Assembly (NCBI RefSeq): GCF_019669905.1 | Contig: NZ_AP019777.1 | Location: forward strand, 992,001 to 1,056,000 | Length of the DNA: 64,000 nt | Source: Methylomonas koyamae | Lineage (GTDB): Bacteria > Pseudomonadota > Gammaproteobacteria > Methylococcales > Methylomonadaceae | Direction of reading: 5' to 3' | In this document: positions 525-9,553 of the stretch, piece after piece | Layout of the letters: every line of letters starts with the position of its first letter | Position numbering within the stretch: position 1 is the first letter of the stretch | Notes under the pieces: generated by a model | Seen by the model: only the letters and a program-made list of their open reading frames with translations | Databases searched by the model: none | Told to the model about the DNA's origin: nothing | Program-made: the position numbers and the translations under genes

Positions 525-609
525 GCCGACGTGGTGAAATTGGTAGACACGCCATCTTGAGGGGGTGGTGACGCAAGTCGTGCCGGTTCAAGTCCGGCCG
601 TCGGTACCA
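525..609 (+). tRNA. tRNA-Leu (GAG anticodon)
   Basis: This 85-nt class II tRNA has acceptor GCCGACG pairing with CGTCGGT (one G-U), then A73 and an encoded CCA. The anticodon stem CCATC/GGTGG closes loop TTGAGGG, giving anticodon GAG at 559-561. A long variable arm fits tRNA-Leu, and the T-arm contains GGTTCAAGTCC. Its 3' end is the integration site of the element that follows: the last 23 nt and the sequence beyond recur at 6306. Confidence 0.96.
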
Positions 610-716
610 AATTAGGGTTTTAAGAAACCCGATACAATCCAAAAACCCGCAAGTTACAAGGCTTCGCGGGTTTTTTTATGTCCGATGGAATCCGCCTAAA
701 TTTGCCAGAATCCGGC
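587..716 (+). repeat. attachment-site direct repeat, copy 1 (attL)
   Basis: This segment runs from the tRNA T-arm through a terminator and is repeated at 6306-6432 with about a dozen differences, including two single-base indels. It contains the tRNA 3' end, the stretch TACCAAATTAGGGTTTTAAG, and the downstream hairpin. Placement directly before an integrase gene and at a tRNA 3' end identifies it as an attachment site. The crossover core is not defined by the sequence alone; the tRNA 3' end is the usual place. Confidence 0.88.
641..677 (+). terminator. rho-independent terminator after tRNA-Leu
   Basis: The arms AAACCCGC (643-650) and GCGGGTTT (666-673) enclose a 15-nt loop and run into seven T residues. 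It sits 34 nt after the tRNA and lies within the attachment repeat, so the element carries its own copy; the second copy is at about 6359-6395. Confidence 0.85.
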
Positions 717-723
717 CCAATGT

Positions 724-791
724 GTGACACTGAGAGTGACACTGAGCTAATGACGCTTTCCAGTGTCACATTTTTTAAAAGCTGGTGTCAC
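724..791 (+). promoter_or_regulatory. integrase arm-type sites, element 1 (GTGACA)
   Basis: GTGACA occurs at 724-729 and 736-741 (12-bp period), followed by inverted copies TGTCAC at 764-769 and 786-791, the last ending 3 nt before the integrase ATG. The pattern repeats at the right end of the element (6235, 6247). In tyrosine-recombinase elements such short repeats beside the core bind the integrase N-terminal arm domain. Overlap with the int leader suggests autoregulation. Function is inferred from position and repetition. Confidence 0.65.
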
Positions 792-794
792 ATT

Positions 795-2048
795 ATGGCA
801 ATCGAAATCAACAAAGACGCGGTTTACAGGGCAGCCAAGCCAAAAGAAAAGGATTACACAATCAAGGACGGCGGCGGTTTGGAAATGGTCATAAAAGCCG
901 ATGGCGTAAAACGATGGGTTTTTAGATATAGGGCAGACGGCAAGCAGAACAAACTAGGCTTTGGTGTGTACCCCGAAACCACGTTAGAGAACGCTAGGCG
1001 GAAGGCGGAGGAAGCGCGGCAACAAATCGCCGAAGGTATCGACCCCGGCAAAATCAGGCGGCAAGAAAAGGCAGCCAAGCAACTAGCCAAACAAAATCAA
1101 GGCCGGCAAAAGGAAGGCTTACCGATTCTGGATAGTTTCGCCGATATTACCCGGCAATGGTTGGCGTCAATCGCGCACCTGACAACCGTAACCACCCACA
1201 CCAAGAAAACCAGCAGGATCGAACGTCTAGCCTTTCCCTTGCTAGGTGATAAACCCATCAAGGAAATTAAATCCGCCGATGTGCTGGCAGTCTTAAAGCC
1301 GATGATCGACAAACAGCAGCTTGAAACGGCGCACCGGCTACACGCGGAAATCAGTTCAATATTTGCCTATGCCATTGTTCACAACTTCACCGACTACGAT
1401 CCGGCGCAACCTGTAGCAAAACAGATACCCGCACAAAAGGTAAGGCACCGGGCAGCGATTATCGACCCCAAGCAGGTTGGGCAATTGTTGCGGGATATTT
1501 ACGCCTATCAAGGCACCTATGTTGTGCAGATGGCGTTAAGGCTAAGCCCATTGCTGTTTCAGCGCCCAGGCGAAATCCGCCAAATGCTTTGGGATGATGT
1601 GGATTTGGTGGCGAAGGAATGGCGGCCTTACATCAGCAAAACCGACTTTCATCATATTGTGCCGTTGAGTCGGCAGGCTTTAGAAATCCTGGAAGCGATC
1701 CAACCACTAACCGGCGGCGGGCAATATGTGTTCCCTTCCAGCCGCGGCGATGGGCGGCCAATGTCGGATAACACCATCAGGACGGCGTTGATAACTCTTG
1801 GTTATGACTCAACCATCCAAACGGCGCACGGATTCCGCACTATTGCATCAACCTTGCTGAATGAGCAGGGATGGAGTCCAGATGCAATCGAGCGCCAGCT
1901 TGCCCACGCGCCGCGCGATCAAGTACGGGCGGCCTATAACCGGGCGCAATACCTGGACGAACGGCGGCGAATGATGCAAAGCTGGGCGGATTACCTGGAT
2001 GGACTTAAAAGAGGTGCGGACGTAATCCCATTTAAGCGGACTGGATAA
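795..2048 (+). CDS. P4-type tyrosine recombinase / integrase
   Basis: This 417-residue integrase has an N-terminal arm-binding domain (DUF4102 type; residues about 1-85, with KDAVYRAAKPKEKDY and DGGGLEMVIKADG), a central SAM-like core-binding domain (about 115-210) and a C-terminal catalytic domain. Visible catalytic residues are Arg in RPGEIRQ, His-x-x-Arg in HGFRTIA, the later His in LAHAPRD and the nucleophile Tyr in AAYNRAQY. ATG 795 is chosen because it aligns with the start of the second integrase at 6490. An in-frame upstream ATG at 678 would translate the attachment repeat and is unlikely. The gene appears intact and should catalyse integration at tRNA-Leu. Confidence 0.93.
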   Translation: MAIEINKDAVYRAAKPKEKDYTIKDGGGLEMVIKADGVKRWVFRYRADGKQNKLGFGVYPETTLENARRKAEEARQQIAEGIDPGKIRRQEKAAKQLAKQNQGRQKEGLPILDSFADITRQWLASIAHLTTVTTHTKKTSRIERLAFPLLGDKPIKEIKSADVLAVLKPMIDKQQLETAHRLHAEISSIFAYAIVHNFTDYDPAQPVAKQIPAQKVRHRAAIIDPKQVGQLLRDIYAYQGTYVVQMALRLSPLLFQRPGEIRQMLWDDVDLVAKEWRPYISKTDFHHIVPLSRQALEILEAIQPLTGGGQYVFPSSRGDGRPMSDNTIRTALITLGYDSTIQTAHGFRTIASTLLNEQGWSPDAIERQLAHAPRDQVRAAYNRAQYLDERRRMMQSWADYLDGLKRGADVIPFKRTG

Positions 2049-2261
2049 AACTAACTTGGACAATCTTTTGTGGATGTTATATTATAGCAGTCACTGATCC
2101 GCTGATACCCTCGACAGGGATAAAGCGAATCTCGCTAACCCTCTCAGACGCTACACAGCCGACGCGAGGCAAGCGCAACTTGAACTTATGTTTAATTTGC
2201 TTTGCCGTGTCCGCTGTTATCGCATCACTGGCAGAGCGACCACCGCATTAGAGGTATCGCA

Positions 2262-2492
2262 ATGCTCGAATTACCACAAACTGGCTATTTACGCCTTCCG
2301 CAAATAATCGGTAACCCCAAAGCCGAACCACCAACCCCACCGCTTATTCCCGTTTCAAAATCTACGTGGTGGGATGGCGTCAAAACCGGACGTTTCCCTA
2401 AACCCGTCAAACTGTCTGCCAGAACAACGGCATGGCGTGTCGAGGACATCCGCGCCTTAATCGAGCAACTTGCAACCGAACGCGCAGCGTAA
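2262..2492 (+). CDS. AlpA-family transcriptional regulator
   Basis: This 76-residue protein is of the AlpA/MerR-like winged-HTH type found in P4-like elements. The family signature is LPQTGYLRLPQIIG, then SKSTWWDGVKTGRFPKPVKL, then TAWRVEDIRALIEQL. Here STWW-GVK-GRFPKPVKL is the recognition wing and WRVEDIR the last helix. In known elements AlpA controls excision or int expression. ATG 2262 follows GAGG at about 2251 and aligns with the start of the copy at 7806. Residues 1-70 are highly similar to that copy. Confidence 0.9.
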   Translation: MLELPQTGYLRLPQIIGNPKAEPPTPPLIPVSKSTWWDGVKTGRFPKPVKLSARTTAWRVEDIRALIEQLATERAA

Positions 2493-2501
2493 GGGGGCAG
2501 G

Positions 2502-2657
2502 ATGACAAACAAAAAAATAGCCACCGGGGCGGGCGAGCCTCAAGCAGCTACAAAATCATTCAACGGCAGCAAGTTTAACCTGATCGATTATCGAATCAAA
2601 GCCGTTATTCATCACCTAGCCCCCTGGTTTTTCCTGGTAGGGGGCTTGCATGGCTAA
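2502..2657 (+). CDS. small ORF sharing an N-terminal leader with the 8031 gene
   Basis: A 51-codon frame begins 9 nt after the alpA stop with RBS GGGGGCAGG. Its first 31 residues, including KSFNGSKFNLIDY, match the start of the protein at 8031 (RSFTGNQFNLIDY) in the same position after alpA. The rest is unrelated (RIKAVIHHLAPWFF...), as if a longer gene had been replaced after LIDY. It overlaps the next start (ATGGCTAA). It could be a translated leader that couples to the DUF927 gene, or a scar of lost cargo. No function is assigned. Confidence 0.5.
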   Translation: MTNKKIATGAGEPQAATKSFNGSKFNLIDYRIKAVIHHLAPWFFLVGGLHG

Positions 2658-4530
2658 GGCTGTACGCAATTCGAAAAAACGCGGTGTTACTGGTGTTACC
2701 GGTGTTACCACTTACAGCGGCGCGGCTTCCAGCGGTAACACCACAAAAAACCAAGGTGTTACCGGTGTTACCAAACCGGAAAACGAAACCAACTTAGAGC
2801 CAGTCGGAGCCGATAAACATCCTTTCCCACCAGCAACAGAACGAGATTGTTATCGCGTTTATGATGATTGGTGCGGGCCGAAGTCAAAATGGCCGCCGGG
2901 TGTTTACTGGCATTACATGAGCAAAGCCACGAGGGAGGAACCACCCGCGCCGGTTGATGTTCGATTGTGCGGGCCTTTACGCGTAACGGCTACAGCCAGA
3001 AACAAGCAAGGCCGCGAGTTTGGACAGGTTCTAGAGTTTGTCGATAAATTGAAACACCCTAAACGCTGGAATATGCCTAGCAAGTTATTGGCTGGCCGTG
3101 GTGATGAATTGCAACGTGAGTTGTTTGATTCGGGGTTGGAGATTAACTACAGGCAGCGCGCCAGAATTGCCGAATACATTAGCGAGCAAAGACCCAAGGC
3201 AACGGTTTGGACGGCTTCGGCGTGTGGCTGGTTTTATGGTGTTTTTGTCTTGCCCAACCAAGTGATTGGCGACAATGCCGAGTCTGTAATGTATCAGAGT
3301 GATAGTGCCAAGGCGTTAGATGCCTACACGCAGGCCGGGAGCCTTGACGATTGGCAAAACCATGTTGCGCGATATTGCCCCGGCAATCCGTTGTTAGTGT
3401 TGGCGGTATCTCAGGCTTTTAGCGGCGCATTATTGGAAAAATGCAGTGTTGACGGTATCGGCGTGCATATTTTTGGCGAATCCAGCAAAGGCAAAACCAG
3501 CGGCATGCTATTGGCGGGCAGTGTATGGGGCGAACCGAAACGGTTTAATCGATCCTGGACAGCCACCGCGAACGGTTTGGAATCAGCGGCTACAGGCGTT
3601 AATGATGGACTGTTATGCCTGGATGAAATGAGCAAGGCCGATGCCAACGAGGTAAGCAAGTCGCTGTATATGCTGGCGAATGGTATCGGTAAACAACGAG
3701 CGACCGCGAACGGTTCCGCGCGTGCAACAAATAACTGGCGCGTATCTGTCCTATCCAATGGCGAAGAATCTATCGAGGCGCATTTACTCAAAGCGGGCAT
3801 TATTGCCAAGGCTGGCGAGCTGGTGCGATTCCTACAACTGCCCATATTCGGCGATTATGGCGCGTTCAATGATTTGCAGGGTAGTGAGTCAGGGCGGGCC
3901 TTTTCCGCCTTGCTGGCGCAAAATTCAGCGCGTTATTACGGCACGGCGGGCATTGCCTATCTGGAGAAACTCACCCGCGATAAACGCGACTTTGCCGAGA
4001 CTCTTAGCCAGTTTGTCGCGGTGATTGAAAAGCAAAACGGCGCATTATCCCCGCAGGAAGGCCGGGCGGCGCGTGCGTTTGCCTTAATCGGTATGGCGGG
4101 CGAATTGGCGACGGAATACGGCATTACAGGCTGGACTGAACGCACGGCGATGGATGCCGCGCTACAGTGCTTTAAACAATGGCGAAACCATCGTGGCAAG
4201 GGTGAGCTTGAGCCTAAGCAGTTAGTGGATACTGTCCGGCATTATGTTGAACTCTATGGCGATGCCCGCTTTACCAGCACCACCGACGACACCCGCTTAT
4301 ACGGTGAGCGTTCTGGATATTGGCGCGAGGTTGAAGGCGTGCGGCAATGGCTATTCAGTACCGCAGGATTTAAAAAGGCCATAGGCAACGCTGACAGCAA
4401 ACAGGCGGCGAGATTGTTAGCTACTCAAGGCGTGTTAATACCTGGAAGATCGAAAACCGTTACACAGGTTAAGCATAGCGGCGGTACAAGCTGGTTTTAC
4501 GTGATTCAGTTCAATAGCGATGCTGAGTAG
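2650..4530 (+). CDS. DUF927-domain replication/primase-helicase-like ATPase
   Basis: This 626-residue protein has a DUF927 core (about residues 150-480), seen in phage and satellite replication proteins. A Walker A-like GESSKGKTS lies near residue 275, followed by SWTATANGLESAA and the Walker B-like LLCLDEMSKA near 322. The C-terminal part is predicted to be helical and ends in a wHTH-like segment. The N-terminus is a low-complexity GVTGVTGVTT tract encoded by 9-bp repeats. No CHC2 zinc finger or TOPRIM motif is seen, so priming activity is not shown. It is the only replication candidate in element 1. The start overlaps the preceding small ORF, suggesting coupled translation. Confidence 0.8.
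   Translation: MAKAVRNSKKRGVTGVTGVTTYSGAASSGNTTKNQGVTGVTKPENETNLEPVGADKHPFPPATERDCYRVYDDWCGPKSKWPPGVYWHYMSKATREEPPAPVDVRLCGPLRVTATARNKQGREFGQVLEFVDKLKHPKRWNMPSKLLAGRGDELQRELFDSGLEINYRQRARIAEYISEQRPKATVWTASACGWFYGVFVLPNQVIGDNAESVMYQSDSAKALDAYTQAGSLDDWQNHVARYCPGNPLLVLAVSQAFSGALLEKCSVDGIGVHIFGESSKGKTSGMLLAGSVWGEPKRFNRSWTATANGLESAATGVNDGLLCLDEMSKADANEVSKSLYMLANGIGKQRATANGSARATNNWRVSVLSNGEESIEAHLLKAGIIAKAGELVRFLQLPIFGDYGAFNDLQGSESGRAFSALLAQNSARYYGTAGIAYLEKLTRDKRDFAETLSQFVAVIEKQNGALSPQEGRAARAFALIGMAGELATEYGITGWTERTAMDAALQCFKQWRNHRGKGELEPKQLVDTVRHYVELYGDARFTSTTDDTRLYGERSGYWREVEGVRQWLFSTAGFKKAIGNADSKQAARLLATQGVLIPGRSKTVTQVKHSGGTSWFYVIQFNSDAE
2683..2772 (+). repeat. iteron-like 9-bp repeat cluster A (GGTGTTACC)
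   Basis: Six copies of GGTGTTACC or its reverse complement GGTAACACC lie at 2683, 2692, 2701, 2734 (inverted), 2755 and 2764; the first copy has one mismatch (GGTGTTACT). They fall inside the 5' coding part of the DUF927 gene and encode its GVTGVT tract. The same 9-mer recurs in cluster B just past the gene. Such repeats beside a replication gene resemble iterons of an origin. Confidence 0.6.
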
Positions 4531-4855
4531 CGTTCTGGATTATTACCTAAAGACGGTAACACCGGTAACACCTGCAAAAATCGAGGTGTTACCGCTACAG
4601 GCCGCGCCATTTCTGGCGGTAACACCAGTAACACCGGTAACACTCGAAAAAAGACACACGCAACCGCAAAACCAGCTACTCCAGAAAACTACAGTTTCCA
4701 AACCAATTACCTGCAAGGCCTGTAATCACTTCCAGAGCTACCACCAACACGGCGGCGGCGCGGGTGTTTGCAGTGTTGGCGTGCAACCCTTTGGCGCGTG
4801 TTGGTGGGCGGATACCTTGCACGAGTGCGACCAATGGAGCGCAAAACATGATTGA
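4520..4855 (+). CDS. small Cys-rich protein of element 1
   Basis: This 111-residue ORF starts 11 nt before the DUF927 stop. Residues about 13-45 contain VTPVTP tracts encoded by iteron cluster B. The C-terminal half has CKACNHFQ, then GAGVCSVG, then HECDQW: spaced Cys residues like the small zinc-binding modules of phage and element proteins. The tract may exist only because DNA repeats are read through. Function is unknown; the end overlaps the next start (ATGATTGA). Confidence 0.6.
   Translation: MLSSVLDYYLKTVTPVTPAKIEVLPLQAAPFLAVTPVTPVTLEKRHTQPQNQLLQKTTVSKPITCKACNHFQSYHQHGGGAGVCSVGVQPFGACWWADTLHECDQWSAKHD
4555..4644 (+). repeat. iteron-like 9-bp repeat cluster B
   Basis: Copies of GGTAACACC lie at 4555, 4564 and 4618, with an inverted GGTGTTACC at 4585 and one-mismatch copies at 4627 and 4636. 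Predominant orientation is opposite to cluster A, so the two clusters bracket the DUF927 gene as a large inverted arrangement 1.8 kb apart. Confidence 0.6.
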
Positions 4856-5066
4856 AGCCGAATTGAAGGCGTTAAGCGACTTGGCCGAAGAGGTTTTGAT
4901 GGCATGGCTTGCCGTTGAAAGTCCGAGCGATAGGCGACGGCAGCAAGCCTTAGCATTGCTGGCCGATGCCGGGATGTTGTTATTCAATGCTCACCGGAAT
5001 TTGACGCTTGATGACTACGGGGAGATTGCGGGGAGTCAGTTAGATTTTCAGAATAACAATCAATAA
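4848..5066 (+). CDS. small hypothetical protein of element 1
   Basis: This 72-residue acidic, helical protein begins MIEAELKALSDLAEEVLMAW and continues RRRQQALALLADAGMLLF. ATG 4848 overlaps the preceding TGA by 8 nt, indicating translational coupling. I do not recognise a family. It resembles the small helical accessory proteins that follow replication genes in phage satellites. Confidence 0.55.
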   Translation: MIEAELKALSDLAEEVLMAWLAVESPSDRRRQQALALLADAGMLLFNAHRNLTLDDYGEIAGSQLDFQNNNQ

Positions 5067-5135
5067 CTTGGCTTGTCTTAAAATAGCCTTGGGTTTTCAC
5101 AAAGCGGCTACGGTAATAACCAATTTAGCCAATCG

Positions 5136-5242
5136 GCAGATCCACGCGCACGCGGCAGAATCGAAACAAGCGGCAAATTTTCCGCTTGATCTGATAGCAG
5201 ACCCACGCGCACGCGGCAGAATGGATACTTCCGGCAAATTTG
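5136..5242 (+). repeat. direct repeat, about 45 bp, two copies 61 bp apart
   Basis: Copy 1 (5136-5181) and copy 2 (5197-5242) share the blocks CCACGCGCACGCGGCAGAAT and GGCAAATTT at the same spacing. They lie in a stretch without a convincing gene (5067-5345). A possible 61-codon frame over the repeats has no recognisable product. The repeats could be protein-binding sites of the element. Confidence 0.55.
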
Positions 5243-5345
5243 CCGAATGTTGAAGTCATGGTAAGGCAAGGTTGTAGATAGGTATCCAAAACATGGTAAC
5301 CAGGCTGGTAGCCATCAAAATCGCCGTTTTTCGGCCAGCGTACTA

Positions 5346-5660
5346 ATGACGACACCGGAACTAAGAAAGCAGCTTAAAGCCTATTGCCGGCGCCATGACG
5401 CCATCTTTGCCGAATGGCGCGAGCGCGGCTATCAGTATCCGCCGCCAGTTCGCGAACCTTTCCCCGCGGAGTTTCGCGATATGACTTGCGGCGCCAAAAC
5501 CCGAGCCGGCACACCTTGCCAGCAAAAGGCGATTTTCGCCAATGGCCGCTGCAAATGGCATGGCGGATGCAGTACCGGCCCCAAGACCGAAGCCGGCAAA
5601 CAGCGGGCGGCTTTGAATGGAAACCGACCGAAGCAAAAGCGAAGTCATACCGGTGAATAA
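5346..5660 (+). CDS. HGG-x-STGPKT motif protein
   Basis: This 104-residue protein has a compact Cys/His module: MTCGAKTRAGTPCQQKAI, then NGRCKWHGGCSTGPKTEAGK. This pattern (C-x-A-K-T...G-x-P-C...C-x-x-HGG...TGPKT) is common in small proteins of phages and integrative elements and probably binds zinc. The N-terminal half is a basic helix. No biochemical role is established. No clear Shine-Dalgarno precedes ATG 5346. It is the third small gene after the replication ATPase. Confidence 0.7.
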   Translation: MTTPELRKQLKAYCRRHDAIFAEWRERGYQYPPPVREPFPAEFRDMTCGAKTRAGTPCQQKAIFANGRCKWHGGCSTGPKTEAGKQRAALNGNRPKQKRSHTGE

Positions 5661-5695
5661 AACACCAGTTTCAACGGCACGGAGGAATAACGATT

Positions 5696-5899
5696 ATGGC
5701 CGCATCCAGTTTTAAAACATCCGCCGAATACCAACGCGAACGGCGAGAACTCAACAGGCGGCACGGCGTGCGGCGATTGGATATTGAAATCGGACCAAAG
5801 CTAATGGCAAGGCTTCAGCGGGAACTTGCCGACTATGGCGCGGCCACCCATCCGGGCGCGGCCCTGGTGGATTGGCTGGATGACGTGTTACCGGAATAA
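5696..5899 (+). CDS. small hypothetical protein, ribbon-helix-helix-like size
   Basis: This 67-residue basic protein has a strong RBS (GGAGGAA, 11 nt before ATG 5696). It reads SAEYQRERRELNRRHGVRRLDIEIGPKLMARLQRELADYG. A strand-like RRLDIEIG followed by two helices would fit a ribbon-helix-helix DNA-binding fold, but this is only a shape argument. The last 24 codons have a second degenerate copy at 6062-6136. Confidence 0.6.
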   Translation: MAASSFKTSAEYQRERRELNRRHGVRRLDIEIGPKLMARLQRELADYGAATHPGAALVDWLDDVLPE

Positions 5900-6061
5900 A
5901 GTACGCAAAAGTACGAAAACGGTACGAACGGAAATACTCAAAAACGCCACCCCGAACGCAACACCCACGCTTAAAGAATTCACGGCCTTGAAAGGCAAAT
6001 ACAACAGCAAACCGCAACATAAAATGAAGCAACGGGGCGTGAACAGGCCTAGTGAACGAAA

Positions 6062-6136
6062 ATTGGCGATTATGGCGCGGCCACCCATCCGGGCGCGGCG
6101 TTGGTTGATTGGTTAAATGATGTTCTGCTCGAGTAG
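6062..6136 (+). pseudogene. duplicated 3' end of the 5696 gene
   Basis: Read in the right frame this stretch gives GDYGAATHPGAALVDWLNDV and then LLE-stop, matching the tail of the 5696 gene (ADYGAATHPGAALVDWLDDV). There is no intact upstream part or start. It marks a partial tandem duplication near the right end of element 1. Confidence 0.75.
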
Positions 6137-6234
6137 TGTCTATTTTAGAGTGTTTAGATATACCGGAATAAACTGCGATAGAATAAAAAAGAAGTAGGGG
6201 TTTAGCGCGACAAGAGCGGGTAAAAGCTAAAAAT

Positions 6235-6252
6235 GTGACACCCAGAGTGACA
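6235..6252 (+). promoter_or_regulatory. right-end arm-type sites of element 1
   Basis: GTGACA occurs at 6235-6240 and 6247-6252 with the same 12-bp period as the left-end pair at 724/736. It lies 54 bp before attachment repeat copy 2. This is what is expected for the other arm of attP and supports 6306-6432 as the right boundary of element 1. Confidence 0.6.
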
Positions 6253-6305
6253 CTGGTGAAGCATCAAAATTGAATGTTGTTGCAAATCAAATTATTGCAA
6301 ATGAA

Positions 6306-6432
6306 TTCAAGACCGGCTGTCGTACCAAATTAGGGTTTTAAGAAACCCGATACAATCCAAAAACCCGCAAGTTACAAGGCTTCGCGGGTTTTTTATGTCC
6401 GATAGAATCCGGCTAGATTTGCCAGAATCCGG
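6306..6432 (+). repeat. attachment-site direct repeat, copy 2
   Basis: The copy begins TTCAAGACCGGCTGTCGTACC, a mutated tRNA-Leu T-arm and acceptor end with one base deleted. It then follows copy 1 almost exactly through the hairpin terminator to GCCAGAATCCGG. It is the right boundary of element 1 and the left boundary of element 2. No third copy was found further right. Confidence 0.87.
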
Positions 6433-6440
6433 GCGAATTT

Positions 6441-6486
6441 GCCATACTGAGAGCCATATCGGGGCGAGTAAGGGTTTCGGTATGGC
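6441..6486 (+). promoter_or_regulatory. integrase arm-type sites, element 2 (GCCATA)
   Basis: GCCATA occurs at 6441-6446 and 6453-6458 and the inverted TATGGC at 6481-6486. The spacings (6 and 22 nt) are identical to the GTGACA set in front of the first integrase, and the flanking CTGAGA is conserved, but the hexamer differs. Confidence 0.6.
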
Positions 6487-6489
6487 AAA

Positions 6490-7682
6490 ATGGCGCTGAA
6501 TTTCAATAAAGACGCGGTTTACAGGGCGGCCAAGCCCAAAGACAAGGACTATTCGATCAGTGACGGCGGCGGCTTGGCACTGAAGGTGAAGCCAGACGGC
6601 ACGAAACGCTGGACATTTTTCTATCGTCTACGCGATGGCACGAAAAATTACCTTGGCTTTGGTGAATACCCGGCCACCACTCTGGAAAACGCCAGGCGGA
6701 AGGCGGAGGAAGCGCGGCAGCAAATCGCCGAAGGTATCGACCCCGGCGAAATCAGGCGGCAAGAAAAAGCAGCCAAGCAACTTGCCAAACAAAACCAAGA
6801 CCGGCAAAAGGAAGGCTTACCGATCCTGGACAGTTTCGCCGATATTACCCGGCAATGGTTGGCGTCAATCGCCCACCTGACAACCGCAACCACCCACGCC
6901 AAGAAAACCAGCAGGATCGAACGCCTAGCCTTTCCCTTGCTAGGTGATAAACCCATCAAGGAAATTAAATCCGCCGATGTGCTGGCAGTCTTAAAGCCGA
7001 TGATCGACAAACAGCAGCTTGAAACGGCGCACCGGCTACACGCGGAAATCAGTTCAATATTTGCCTATGCCATTGTTCACAACTTCACCGACTACGATCC
7101 GGCGCAACCTGTAGCAAAACAGATACCCGCACAAAAGGTAAGGCACCGGGCCGCGATTATCGACCCCAAGCAGGTTGGGCAATTGTTGCGGGATATTTAC
7201 GCCTATCAAGGCACCTATGTTGTGCAGATGGCGTTAAGGCTAAGCCCATTGCTGTTTCAGCGCCCCGGCGAAATCCGCCAAATGCTTTGGGATGATGTGG
7301 ATTTGGTGGCGGAGGAATGGCGGCCTTACATCAGCAAAACCGACTTTCATCATATTGTGCCGTTGAGCCGGCATGCCTTAGAAATCCTGGAGGCCATCCA
7401 ACCATTAACCGGAGACGGGCAATATGTTTTCCCTTCCAGTCGCGGCGACGGGCGGCCAATGTCGAATAACACCATTAGGACGGCGCTAATAACGCTGGGC
7501 TATGACTCAACTATCCAAACGGCGCACGGATTCCGCACTATTGCATCAACCTTGCTGAATGAACAGGGATGGAGTCCAGACGCAATCGAGCGCCGGCTCG
7601 CCCACGCCCCGCGCGATCAAGTCTGAGCCGCCTACAACCGGCGCAATACTTAGACGAACGCCGGCGCTCAGGTGATACCGTT
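6490..7682 (+). pseudogene. P4-type integrase, truncated before catalytic Tyr
   Basis: The open frame (6490-7626, 378 codons) is nearly identical to the integrase at 795 from about residue 68 onward. Its N-terminal arm-binding domain is clearly different (MALNFNKDAVYRAAKPKDKD...ALKVKPDGTKRWTFFYRL). It stops at TGA 7624 directly after LAHAPRDQV, before the AAYNRAQY nucleophile. Beyond the stop, homologous DNA continues to about 7682 with a one-base deletion and a lost tail. Arg, His-x-x-Arg and the second His remain, so it may still bind DNA but should not recombine. Confidence 0.88.
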
Positions 7683-7805: not shown

Positions 7806-8021
7806 ATGCACCAACTACCCCAAACCGGCTATTTACGCCTGCCGCAAATTATTGGCAATCCAAAAGCCGAGCCACCCATTCCGCCGATCATTCCCGTTTC
7901 CAAGTCAACTTGGTGGGATGGAGTCAAAAGCGGGCGCTACCCTAAACTCGTCAAGCTGAGTCTTCGAACAACGGCTTGGCGCGTCGAAGACATCCGCGCC
8001 TTGATCGAGCGAATGGCGTAA
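7806..8021 (+). CDS. AlpA-family transcriptional regulator (element 2)
   Basis: This 71-residue paralogue of the 2262 regulator has the same LPQTGYLRLPQIIGNPKAEP start, STWWDGVKSGRYPKLVKLS wing and TAWRVEDIRALIERM end. It ends five residues earlier. RBS GGAG precedes ATG 7806. It lies in the same place after the integrase and 9 nt before the next ORF. It is probably functional; its target is expected to differ little from that of element 1. Confidence 0.88.
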   Translation: MHQLPQTGYLRLPQIIGNPKAEPPIPPIIPVSKSTWWDGVKSGRYPKLVKLSLRTTAWRVEDIRALIERMA

Positions 8022-8030
8022 GGAGGCAGG

Positions 8031-8684
8031 ATGGCAGCCAACAAAAAAGCCGCGCCAGTCGGGAAACTGGTCACGGCTTCAAGATCATTTACCGGCAACC
8101 AGTTTAACCTGATCGATTACGGCCTGCTGCATTCGCCGGATTACCGCAAACGCTATGCTGACAATCTGGCCAAGGAATTGCCGCGTATCCCTTGCGTCAA
8201 AACCGCTGCCGATTTTTGGGCGTTTGCCAAGGCCGGGCGCGACTTGGCGGAACTACATTTGCATTACGAAACCGTCGAAAAGTATCCGTTGCAAATTGTC
8301 GGCAATCCGCAATTAACCGATGCCGATTACCGGGTCGAGAAGATGAAATACGGCACCCTCACCCCAACCCTCTCCCGGGGGGAGAGGGGGACTGCACGGA
8401 GTAAAGACCTGACCACGCTGCATTACAACGCCAAAATTACTCTGACCGGCATTCCGCTGGAAGCTTACGACTACGTGGTCAACGGCAAACCGGCGCTGGA
8501 TTGGGTGGTCGAGCGGCAATGCGTCAAAACCGACAAAGACAGCGGCATCGTCAACGACGCCAACGACTGGGCTATCGAAACCATGCACAACCCGCGCTAT
8601 CCGTTGGAACTGTTCCAGCGCGTGATTACGGTCAGTTTGGCAACGATGAAAATTGTTAAGGCCTTGCCTGCTTTGAATATTTAA
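8031..8684 (+). CDS. orphan C-terminal/target-recognition fragment of a type ISP restriction-modification protein
   Basis: This is a 217-residue product. Residues 1-33 are the element leader also found at 2502 (SRSFTGNQFNLIDY). From GLLHSPDYRKRYADNLAKEL onward it follows the C-terminal region of type ISP (LlaGI-like) proteins: LPRIP, AKAGRDLAELHLHYETVE, YDYVVNGKPALDWVVERQ, TDKDSGIVNDANDWAIE and NPRYPLELFQRVI. The nuclease, helicase and methylase parts are absent. A hairpin repeat adds an in-frame insert (GTLTPTLSRGERGTAR). After TAA 8682 the frame stays open for 23 codons (PDESAQITKAVTGKVDVREW, then a stop at 8754), so that stop may be a late mutation. It cannot act as a restriction enzyme alone. 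Confidence 0.72.
   Translation: MAANKKAAPVGKLVTASRSFTGNQFNLIDYGLLHSPDYRKRYADNLAKELPRIPCVKTAADFWAFAKAGRDLAELHLHYETVEKYPLQIVGNPQLTDADYRVEKMKYGTLTPTLSRGERGTARSKDLTTLHYNAKITLTGIPLEAYDYVVNGKPALDWVVERQCVKTDKDSGIVNDANDWAIETMHNPRYPLELFQRVITVSLATMKIVKALPALNI
8368..8388 (+). repeat. hairpin repeat inserted in frame in the 8031 gene
   Basis: CCCTCTCCC (8368-8376) pairs with GGGAGAGGG (8380-8388) in a GC-rich insert running from about 8353 to 8403. This CTCACCCCAACCCTCTCCC hairpin type is dispersed in many proteobacterial genomes. Here it sits inside an otherwise conserved protein and keeps the frame. Confidence 0.7.
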
Positions 8685-8745: not shown

Positions 8746-9141
8746 ATGAATAAACTGGCTCTCATAAACTGCTTACAAACTCAGCTCGATGGCTTGCTGG
8801 CGTTGTATGCCTTTGGCAGCCGTATCCAGGGCAACGCAACGCCGGACAGCGACCTGGATTTAGCGGTTTTGGTTGCCGGTTATGCCGACCCGGTTTTATT
8901 GTTCGATCTGGCCGGGCAACTGGCCGATATCGCCGGCTGCCCGGTGGACTTGGTCGATTTACGCGCGGCTTCGACAGTCATGCAATACCAAATCATCATG
9001 ACAGGCGAACGCTGGTGGCAAAAGGACGCCCAAGCGGCATTGTTCGAGGCGGCGGTGTTGAGCGAAAAAACGGCGCTGGATACGGCACGCGCGGCGCTGA
9101 TCGAAGACATCCAACACAGGGGCAGTGTCTATGGCCGATGA
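8746..9141 (+). CDS. mntA: MntA-type nucleotidyltransferase antitoxin
   Basis: This 131-residue minimal nucleotidyltransferase has the MNT signature FGSRIQGNATPDSDLDLAVL near residues 24-43 (GS...D-x-D), and VDLVDLRAAS supplies the third acidic position. MNT antitoxins modify or mask HEPN RNases. The gene overlaps the HEPN gene by 11 nt, the standard order for an MntA-HepT module. ATG 8746 is used; an ATG five bases upstream opens only two codons. It is cargo of element 2. Confidence 0.88.
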   Translation: MNKLALINCLQTQLDGLLALYAFGSRIQGNATPDSDLDLAVLVAGYADPVLLFDLAGQLADIAGCPVDLVDLRAASTVMQYQIIMTGERWWQKDAQAALFEAAVLSEKTALDTARAALIEDIQHRGSVYGR

Positions 9142-9553
9142 TGTTTTGCTGAATAAAGCGGCAACGATTGAGCGTTGCGTGCGGCGCGCGCGGGAAGAAT
9201 ATGCCGCCGATCCGGCCGGCTTTATTCAAAACGACACTCGGCAGGATGCCGCCATTCTGAACATTCAACGCGCTTGCGAAGCGGCGCTGGATATGGGGCA
9301 GCATTTGATTCGGCGCGAAAAATTAGGTATTCCGCAAAGCGCTCGCGATGTGTTTAACCTACTGGCACAAGGCGGCTGGGGCGAGCTGGAATTGGCCGCA
9401 GGCCTGAAACGTATGGTGGGCTTTCGTAATATTGCCGTGCATGAATATCAGGCATTACAACTGCCCATCACGGTGGCTATTATCGAAAAACAATTGGACG
9501 AATTTTTGCAGTACAGCAATGTTCTGTTGCGGCCGGACGCCAGCAGCGGCTAA
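9131..9553 (+). CDS. hepT: HepT-type HEPN ribonuclease toxin
   Basis: This 140-residue helical protein is of the DUF86/HepT family. The HEPN active-site motif R-x4-H is seen as MVGFRNIAVHEYQAL near residue 100, including the Tyr that is modified in characterised HepT/MntA pairs. ATG 9131 lies inside the mntA end; an in-frame GTG at 9125 is an alternative. Both partners look intact, so the module could still act in element maintenance or phage defence. Confidence 0.88.
   Translation: MADDVLLNKAATIERCVRRAREEYAADPAGFIQNDTRQDAAILNIQRACEAALDMGQHLIRREKLGIPQSARDVFNLLAQGGWGELELAAGLKRMVGFRNIAVHEYQALQLPITVAIIEKQLDEFLQYSNVLLRPDASSG

Follow-up and report, generated by a model that had tools for sequence, protein, structure and literature searches.

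In phage P4 (X51522), two direct arm repeats with a 12-base-pair (bp) period precede the integrase gene int, one inverted repeat is found at the start of int, and two further direct repeats at a 12-bp period lie beyond the core. Overlap of such sites with the int promoter has been reported for IntS of KplE1 (CPS-53) in Escherichia coli, where the part of the report drawn on here describes an attL that overlaps the promoter and a roughly 5-fold repression of int by Int (PMC2951348). Differences in arm sites between close integrases have also been described. The mycobacteriophages of cluster K1 have close integrases with differing arm-site consensus, and residues 17 and 19 are named as candidate recognition residues in the section of that paper used here (PMC3203893), while for the IntF/IntB-F prophages of Oenococcus oeni the corresponding section gives integrases that are 92% identical, with 21 of 46 changes in the N-terminal 66 residues and differing direct repeats, for which the authors propose coevolution (PMC8074189). 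Here we describe a 64,000-nucleotide (nt) stretch of Methylomonas koyamae contig NZ_AP019777.1 (positions 992,001 to 1,056,000; hereafter the window) in which two P4-type elements are stacked at one tRNA-Leu gene, each with its own integrase gene (int1, int2) and its own short repeated word. We consider it very likely that these words are the arm sites of the two elements, and that the arm-binding domain together with its arm sites (P pair, inverted site and P' pair) forms a co-inherited specificity unit that has been exchanged by recombination, with leader, core and catalytic domain as the conserved background.

Arm sites and integrases of the two elements

The attachment region of the window contains the following features, the arm sites being putative.

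525..609, + strand: tRNA-Leu (GAG) gene, the 3' end of which is the att core
724..729, + strand: P-arm site 1 of element 1, GTGACA
736..741, + strand: P-arm site 2 of element 1, GTGACA
764..769, - strand: inverted arm site of element 1, TGTCAC
786..791, - strand: further inverted arm site of element 1, lying 3 nt upstream of the int1 start codon (ATG) and aligning with 6481
795..2048, + strand: int1, P4-type integrase of 417 residues with arm-binding, central and catalytic domains; Tyr381
6235..6240, + strand: right-end (P') arm site of element 1, GTGACA
6247..6252, + strand: right-end (P') arm site of element 1, GTGACA
6309..6327, + strand: copy of the tRNA 3' end, where element 1 ends and element 2 begins
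6441..6446, + strand: P-arm site 1 of element 2, GCCATA
6453..6458, + strand: P-arm site 2 of element 2, GCCATA
6481..6486, - strand: inverted arm site of element 2, TATGGC, 3 nt before the int2 ATG
6490..7626, + strand: int2, 378 residues, stopping short of the catalytic tyrosine

The original prediction had placed GTGACA at 724 and 736, TGTCAC at 764, GCCATA at 6441 and 6453 and TATGGC at 6481, and all of these words and coordinates were exact, as were the GTGACA pair at the right end of element 1 (6235 and 6247) and the identical spacing of the two leaders, with a 6-nt gap followed by a 22-nt gap. The inverted site at 786-791 had been overlooked, and it is this site, not 764, that is the positional counterpart of 6481. 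The pattern GTGACA-N6-GTGACA, allowing at most one mismatch, was observed twice in the 64 kilobases (kb) of the window against 0.13 expected, and for the direct-direct-inverted layout each of the two leaders scored above all 100 of its own dinucleotide shuffles. When the leaders of related integrases were compared with dinucleotide shuffles in the same way (n=89), 77 reached a p-value of 0.05 and 52 the smallest value possible. The layout in the window is not due to chance.

Copies of the att core of element 1 were observed at 590-609 and 6309-6327, consistent with insertion at a tRNA 3' end with a repeated core, and a perfect repeat links 604-676 with 6322-6394. Element 1 spans about 5.7 kb between the tRNA 3' end and its copy at 6309-6327 and contains int1, an AlpA-like gene, a DUF927 gene and small frames. 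It shows direct repeats with a 12-bp period on both sides of the core and an inverted repeat at the start of int, as in P4 attP, while element 2 has the left side only. By this analogy the anatomy of the window appears to be that of P4 attP, divided into attL and attR by integration.

The words also lie close to the putative int promoter. A -10-like hexamer (at least 4 of 6 matches) was observed at offset 23 in 60% of 73 family leaders, compared to at most 15% at 29 other offsets. Counted from the hexamer of the first word, this is a distance of 17 nt, which places the first word at the -35 and the second between the -35 and the -10. The int1 leader has 4 of 6 matches, one base off the common offset. 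With arm sites so positioned, binding by Int would be expected to repress int. In forming the recombination complex, Int would contact the core through its central and catalytic domains and use its N-terminal domain for the arm words.

Int1 and Int2 both matched PF13356 (Arm-DNA-bind_3), PF22022 (central) and PF00589 (catalytic) above cut-off and in this order, as expected of P4-type (DUF4102, IntSXT-group) integrases. Near-identity outside the N-terminus, as originally claimed, was found at the protein level (77% identity over residues 1-91, 97% over residues 115-381), but the supposedly kept part is itself uneven, since DNA identity was 65% for codons 22-62, 99% for codons 115-250 and 93% for codons 251-370. 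Codons for the same residue differed synonymously at 15 of 42 positions in codons 1-62, 10 of 50 in 63-114, 3 of 134 in 115-250 and 19 of 115 in 251-370; the first segment was significantly more diverged than the third (Fisher test, p = 2e-8) and the fourth (p = 0.015). These silent changes suggest that int1 and int2 are a recombinant mosaic, pointing to recombination and against point mutation.

A different history would have the two integrases as old relatives in which gene conversion between the tandem copies evened the middle of int and the leader, leaving the N-terminal segments and their sites as an unconverted ancestral difference. Codons 251-370 also carry many silent changes and only the middle is most alike, which fits this history, while divergence remains higher in the N-terminal part than in the C-terminal part. 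We regard gene conversion as possible, though on balance doubtful, and it is compatible with inheritance as a unit in that domain and sites again stay together. Thus the claim that N-terminal domain and arm site were exchanged as one cassette is supported by the synonymous mosaic, and by the covariation across homologues given below, while an incoming N-terminal segment with its sites and a homogenised middle fit the data alike; either way, the domain and its sites are one unit.

The Tyr381 codon of int1 is at 1935-1937, and the int2 stop (7624-7626) is upstream of the equivalent codon. We take Tyr381 to be the catalytic nucleophile, by family motif, and Int2 is very probably a truncated relative that is inactive as a recombinase.

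Covariation of the arm word with the N-terminal domain

The catalytic part of the integrase was searched through 237 genomes of the family, with a match in 182, and the leader and N-terminal domain were read in 100 loci plus the window, taking the arm word from the leader DNA alone. A total of 102 sequences were entered (100 loci and two window slices) and 96 were kept; removing three window duplicates, four distant starts and six without a period-12 pair left 83, and removing four weak motifs left 79, which were thinned to 72 non-redundant loci. For these 72 loci, word similarity correlated with N-terminal identity (Spearman 0.57) far more than with catalytic identity (0.19), and in partial correlation the N-terminal term remained (0.54, permutation p = 0.001) while the catalytic term vanished (-0.04, p = 0.88). 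The nearest relative differed between the two domains in 42 cases, and the word sided with the N-terminal domain in 31 of these and with the catalytic domain in none (11 ties). The covariation of hexamer with N-terminal type implied by the original prediction was therefore observed, and the sequences support a covariation of the arm word with the N-terminal domain that does not depend on the catalytic domain. Individual pairs illustrate this: L053 and L058 have 96% identity in the catalytic part but 53% in the N-terminal domain, with the words GTGACA and GCAGTAA, while L012 and L015 (94% and 60%) have GTTACC and GTTGTAC.

Such pairs also bear on divergence in place, in which sites and N-terminal domain would have changed stepwise and without exchange, by coevolution and slow drift of specificity. 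GTGACA and GTGATA are mixed within single leaders, the near-neighbour words ATGTCC and GTGTCC look stepwise, and intermediate forms are described in mycobacteriophages, in the part of the source used here (PMC3203893). However, the pair L053/L058 is hard to reach by this path, and in the window silent positions are as uneven as coding ones (15/42 against 3/134), and we consider drift without exchange quite unlikely.

A wider set was also examined, in which 128 of 132 loci had a usable start; these were the best Pfam scorers per genome and so lean to the domain consensus, and one (L149) belongs to the window's own family. The same layout was observed in 80 of the 128 loci, almost all outside the family of the window, compared to 13 of 384 shuffles. 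For Int2 itself, no sister of the N-terminal domain with GCCATA was observed among the matches listed from the 237 family genomes (the best had 74% identity), and three of the four closest N-terminal domains among these matches carry or precede GTTGTAC words.

The leader terminator and the arm-site register were observed behind various tRNA genes, including tRNA-Leu CAA (L101, L102, L103, L107, L120) and tRNA-Pro (L105), and both were also found at L110, which is preceded by tRNA-Gly and tRNA-Cys, and at L112 (tRNA-Leu TAA). The choice of core and the choice of arm therefore seem to vary independently of each other. The arm-binding domain would evolve as an exchangeable module, apart from the choice of target.

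The far ends of the elements were matched to their own words. In stacked and single elements, the right-end pair was followed about 149 bp later by the next leader terminator copy. It matched the element's own left-hand word at 15 of 18 scored junctions with 0-3 of 14 mismatches, compared to a median of 5-7 for the words of other elements, although in some rows another element's word fits equally, as several elements share words. Of the three remaining junctions, the one in L103 was a terminator-like string internal to an element, L118 is a remnant that lacks a right pair of its own, and the terminator scored in L119 does not mark a right end (its word pair was found at 7480). Terminators can be far apart on the chromosome, as in L112/L113 (36.5 kb). 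Once the element is circular, P', the core, P and the codons for the N-terminus would nevertheless be neighbours, so that a single exchange spanning well below 1 kb could transfer them together.

These right ends also argue against the words being operators of another regulator, for example an AlpA-like protein, in place of integrase arm sites. The overlap of the words with the int promoter region is as an operator would have it, but the words recur at the far end at a fixed distance, track the N-terminal domain of the integrase, and have P4 counterparts annotated as attP arm repeats, making this explanation highly improbable.

Residues and bases of the arm-binding domain

Within the word class GNNGGNA, and using Int1 numbering, residue 51 was associated with base 3 of the word, with E, R and Q going with G, C and T in 63 of 65 rows (on the other strand, E, R and Q with C, G and A). 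Since these 65 rows include close relatives unthinned, independent pairs were counted on the catalytic-domain tree using the 58 with near full-length proteins. R51/C3 was supported by nine pairs with none opposite (p = 0.004), E51/G3 by eight with none opposite (p = 0.008), and R53 with base 6 by six pairs (p = 0.03). A further 79 loci were then considered, of which 44 were already in the sample or unusable, 8 had no motif and 10 were outside the word class. The rule held in the remaining loci for base 3 (17/17), base 6 (17/17) and base 2 (13/13), where a new locus is one whose first 90 residues are not identical to an earlier row and two of the 17 (L319, L327) are near relatives. Phage P4 also fits, as all six of its annotated arm repeats contain GGGGGCA and its integrase has K44, E51 and R53. 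In a model of the arm-binding domain, residues 39-47 and 50-58 form strands, and together with the residue-base associations and P4 this suggests that a beta hairpin reads the word, residue 44 with base 2, 51 with base 3 and 53 with base 6.

In the window, Int1 has Q51 and K53, and Int2 has K and Y at the same places with a hairpin one residue longer. Read as TGTGACA and TGCCATA, the changes follow the rule (base 3 from T to C, base 6 from C to T), and the two words are consistent with it in a register picked afterwards. When the rule was extended to GTGACA/GTTGTA words, base 6 held only partly and the extension was rejected; for GTTACC/GTGTCC words a consistent register was looked for by eye and none was found. 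In a word class without R46, ATGTCC was observed with Gln51 (L033, L035, L037, L038, L043) and GTGTCC with Arg51 (L029, L093), which may be another version of the rule in which the opposite strand is contacted.

Several observations weigh against these readings. No direct-direct-inverted motif was found in 48 of the 128 wider leaders, GCCATA is without a second example among the matches listed from the 237 family genomes, and the -10 of the int2 leader is weak. Two of the 65 rows break the base-3 rule, and Q51/T3 had only three supported independent pairs (p = 0.25). The words of the window are outside the GNNGGNA class and fit only under the post-hoc register, and within their own class R53 was observed with C at base 6 in 33 site copies but with T in 20; the broken distal integrases L106 and L111 likewise have R53 with T.

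Taken together, we think it likely, if less firmly so than co-inheritance of domain and sites, that the P4-type arm-binding domain is a decodable DNA reader, in which residues 44, 51 and 53 on one beta hairpin would determine bases 2, 3 and 6 in a word of seven bases through ordinary side-chain and base chemistry. The domain and all of its arm sites would move between integrases as a unit, so that arm sites, island ends and self-repression could be predicted from protein sequence. If the rule is true, the arm sites and self-repression operators of P4-type islands would be readable from the protein and vice versa, and island ends could be found by searching for an element's own word. Natural integrases with a common core site and differing arm sites would then offer orthogonal recombination tools.

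Tandem arrays, gene content and known systems

Arrays of like-stranded integrases within reach of each other were picked by eye among the matches listed, giving 12 arrays, 11 from the genus of the window and one (L114) from another genus of the family: the window (795-7626), L101-L107, L111, L112/L113, L114 and L118. L110, in which the script gave no word for the second integrase, and L108/L109, in which the second match was too weak, were left out. The original prediction held that the switch lets two elements share one att site without cross-regulating, and it could be supposed that the switch was selected for this, or to keep the elements from excising each other. Neighbouring words did differ in 11 of the 12 arrays (11 of 13 if the further remnant boundary of L118, with like words, is counted). 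However, random pairs of the genus differed in 88% (P = 0.55), at least one array had like words, with L104 appearing to have the same word twice, and most distal integrases were broken, Int2 among them in lacking the catalytic tyrosine. We observed no sign of selection for differing neighbour words; that part of the prediction was not supported, and selected coexistence seems unlikely.

The tRNA-proximal integrase was a single long frame in all 12 arrays. The distal integrase was plainly broken in nine (window, L101, L103-L107, L111, L114), shortened in L102 and long in L113, with L118 left unassigned. The newest insertion probably adjoins the tRNA, and insertion age probably explains the broken distal integrases.

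Beyond the integrases, the two elements contain the following genes.

2262..2492, + strand: AlpA-like gene of element 1 (frame as scanned)
2650..4530, + strand: DUF927-domain gene of element 1
7806..8021, + strand: element 2 paralogue of the AlpA-like gene (212 nt at 80% DNA identity), without a Pfam match
8031..8684, + strand: gene of remnant element 2 matching type ISP restriction-modification proteins in their C-terminal domain
8746..9553, + strand: nucleotidyltransferase and HepT-like (MNT-HEPN) pair (8746-9141, 9125-9553), remnant element 2

The gene following int is common to both elements (2262-2473 and 7806-8017, 80% DNA identity), as is a 44-nt stretch beyond it (2547-2590 and 8076-8119, 86%), and further on the cargo differs. 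The two elements thus appear, from these alignments, to have the same backbone with a different load. The right half of element 1 also has two partial duplications (5823-5886/6060-6123, 84%, and 5136-5184/5197-5245, 86%), which are unexplained. A right end of element 2 was not found by a search with the tRNA 3' end (at most three mismatches), which gave one match in the window and one in the whole genome, and a search for paired GCCATA (at most two mismatches) was at chance level, with 11 matches against 5.3 expected and two of the 11 being the leader itself. As int2 also stops before the catalytic tyrosine, element 2 was taken to be a remnant.

The prior reports used here each treat the arm sites of a single integrase or of a small group, and searches of the open-access literature gave neither a quantitative covariation nor a residue code for P4-type integrases. 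The VIA-align list did not show a lambda-type arm domain, and this was not counted as evidence of a difference. For E. coli K-12 IntA, the pair at a 12-bp period and an inverted copy were both present, but its hairpin is a different one; by eye, no such leader was found for IntF. Structures of arm-binding domains (3JU0, 3JTZ, 3RMP) represent single specificities; the title of 3RMP refers to attP substrate recognition by P4-like integrases, and the contacts of one protein may already be visible in that entry. The Oenococcus study, in the part used here, is a single comparison without statistics or a recognition rule, and that of cluster K1, within the same limit, covers four phages and few substitutions, without an exchange or a test across lineages. 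KplE1 IntS resembles the window in its direct and inverted words before the ATG and differs in the word itself; repression was measured in KplE1, according to the part of that report used here, and would be expected in the window. In P4, the annotated core end and the first P word are 115 bp apart (4078 to 3963), the same distance as in the window (609 to 724). P4 differs in its word, GGGGGCA as against GTGACA and GCCATA, and in an extra repeat inside int, whereas the window has two stacked elements.

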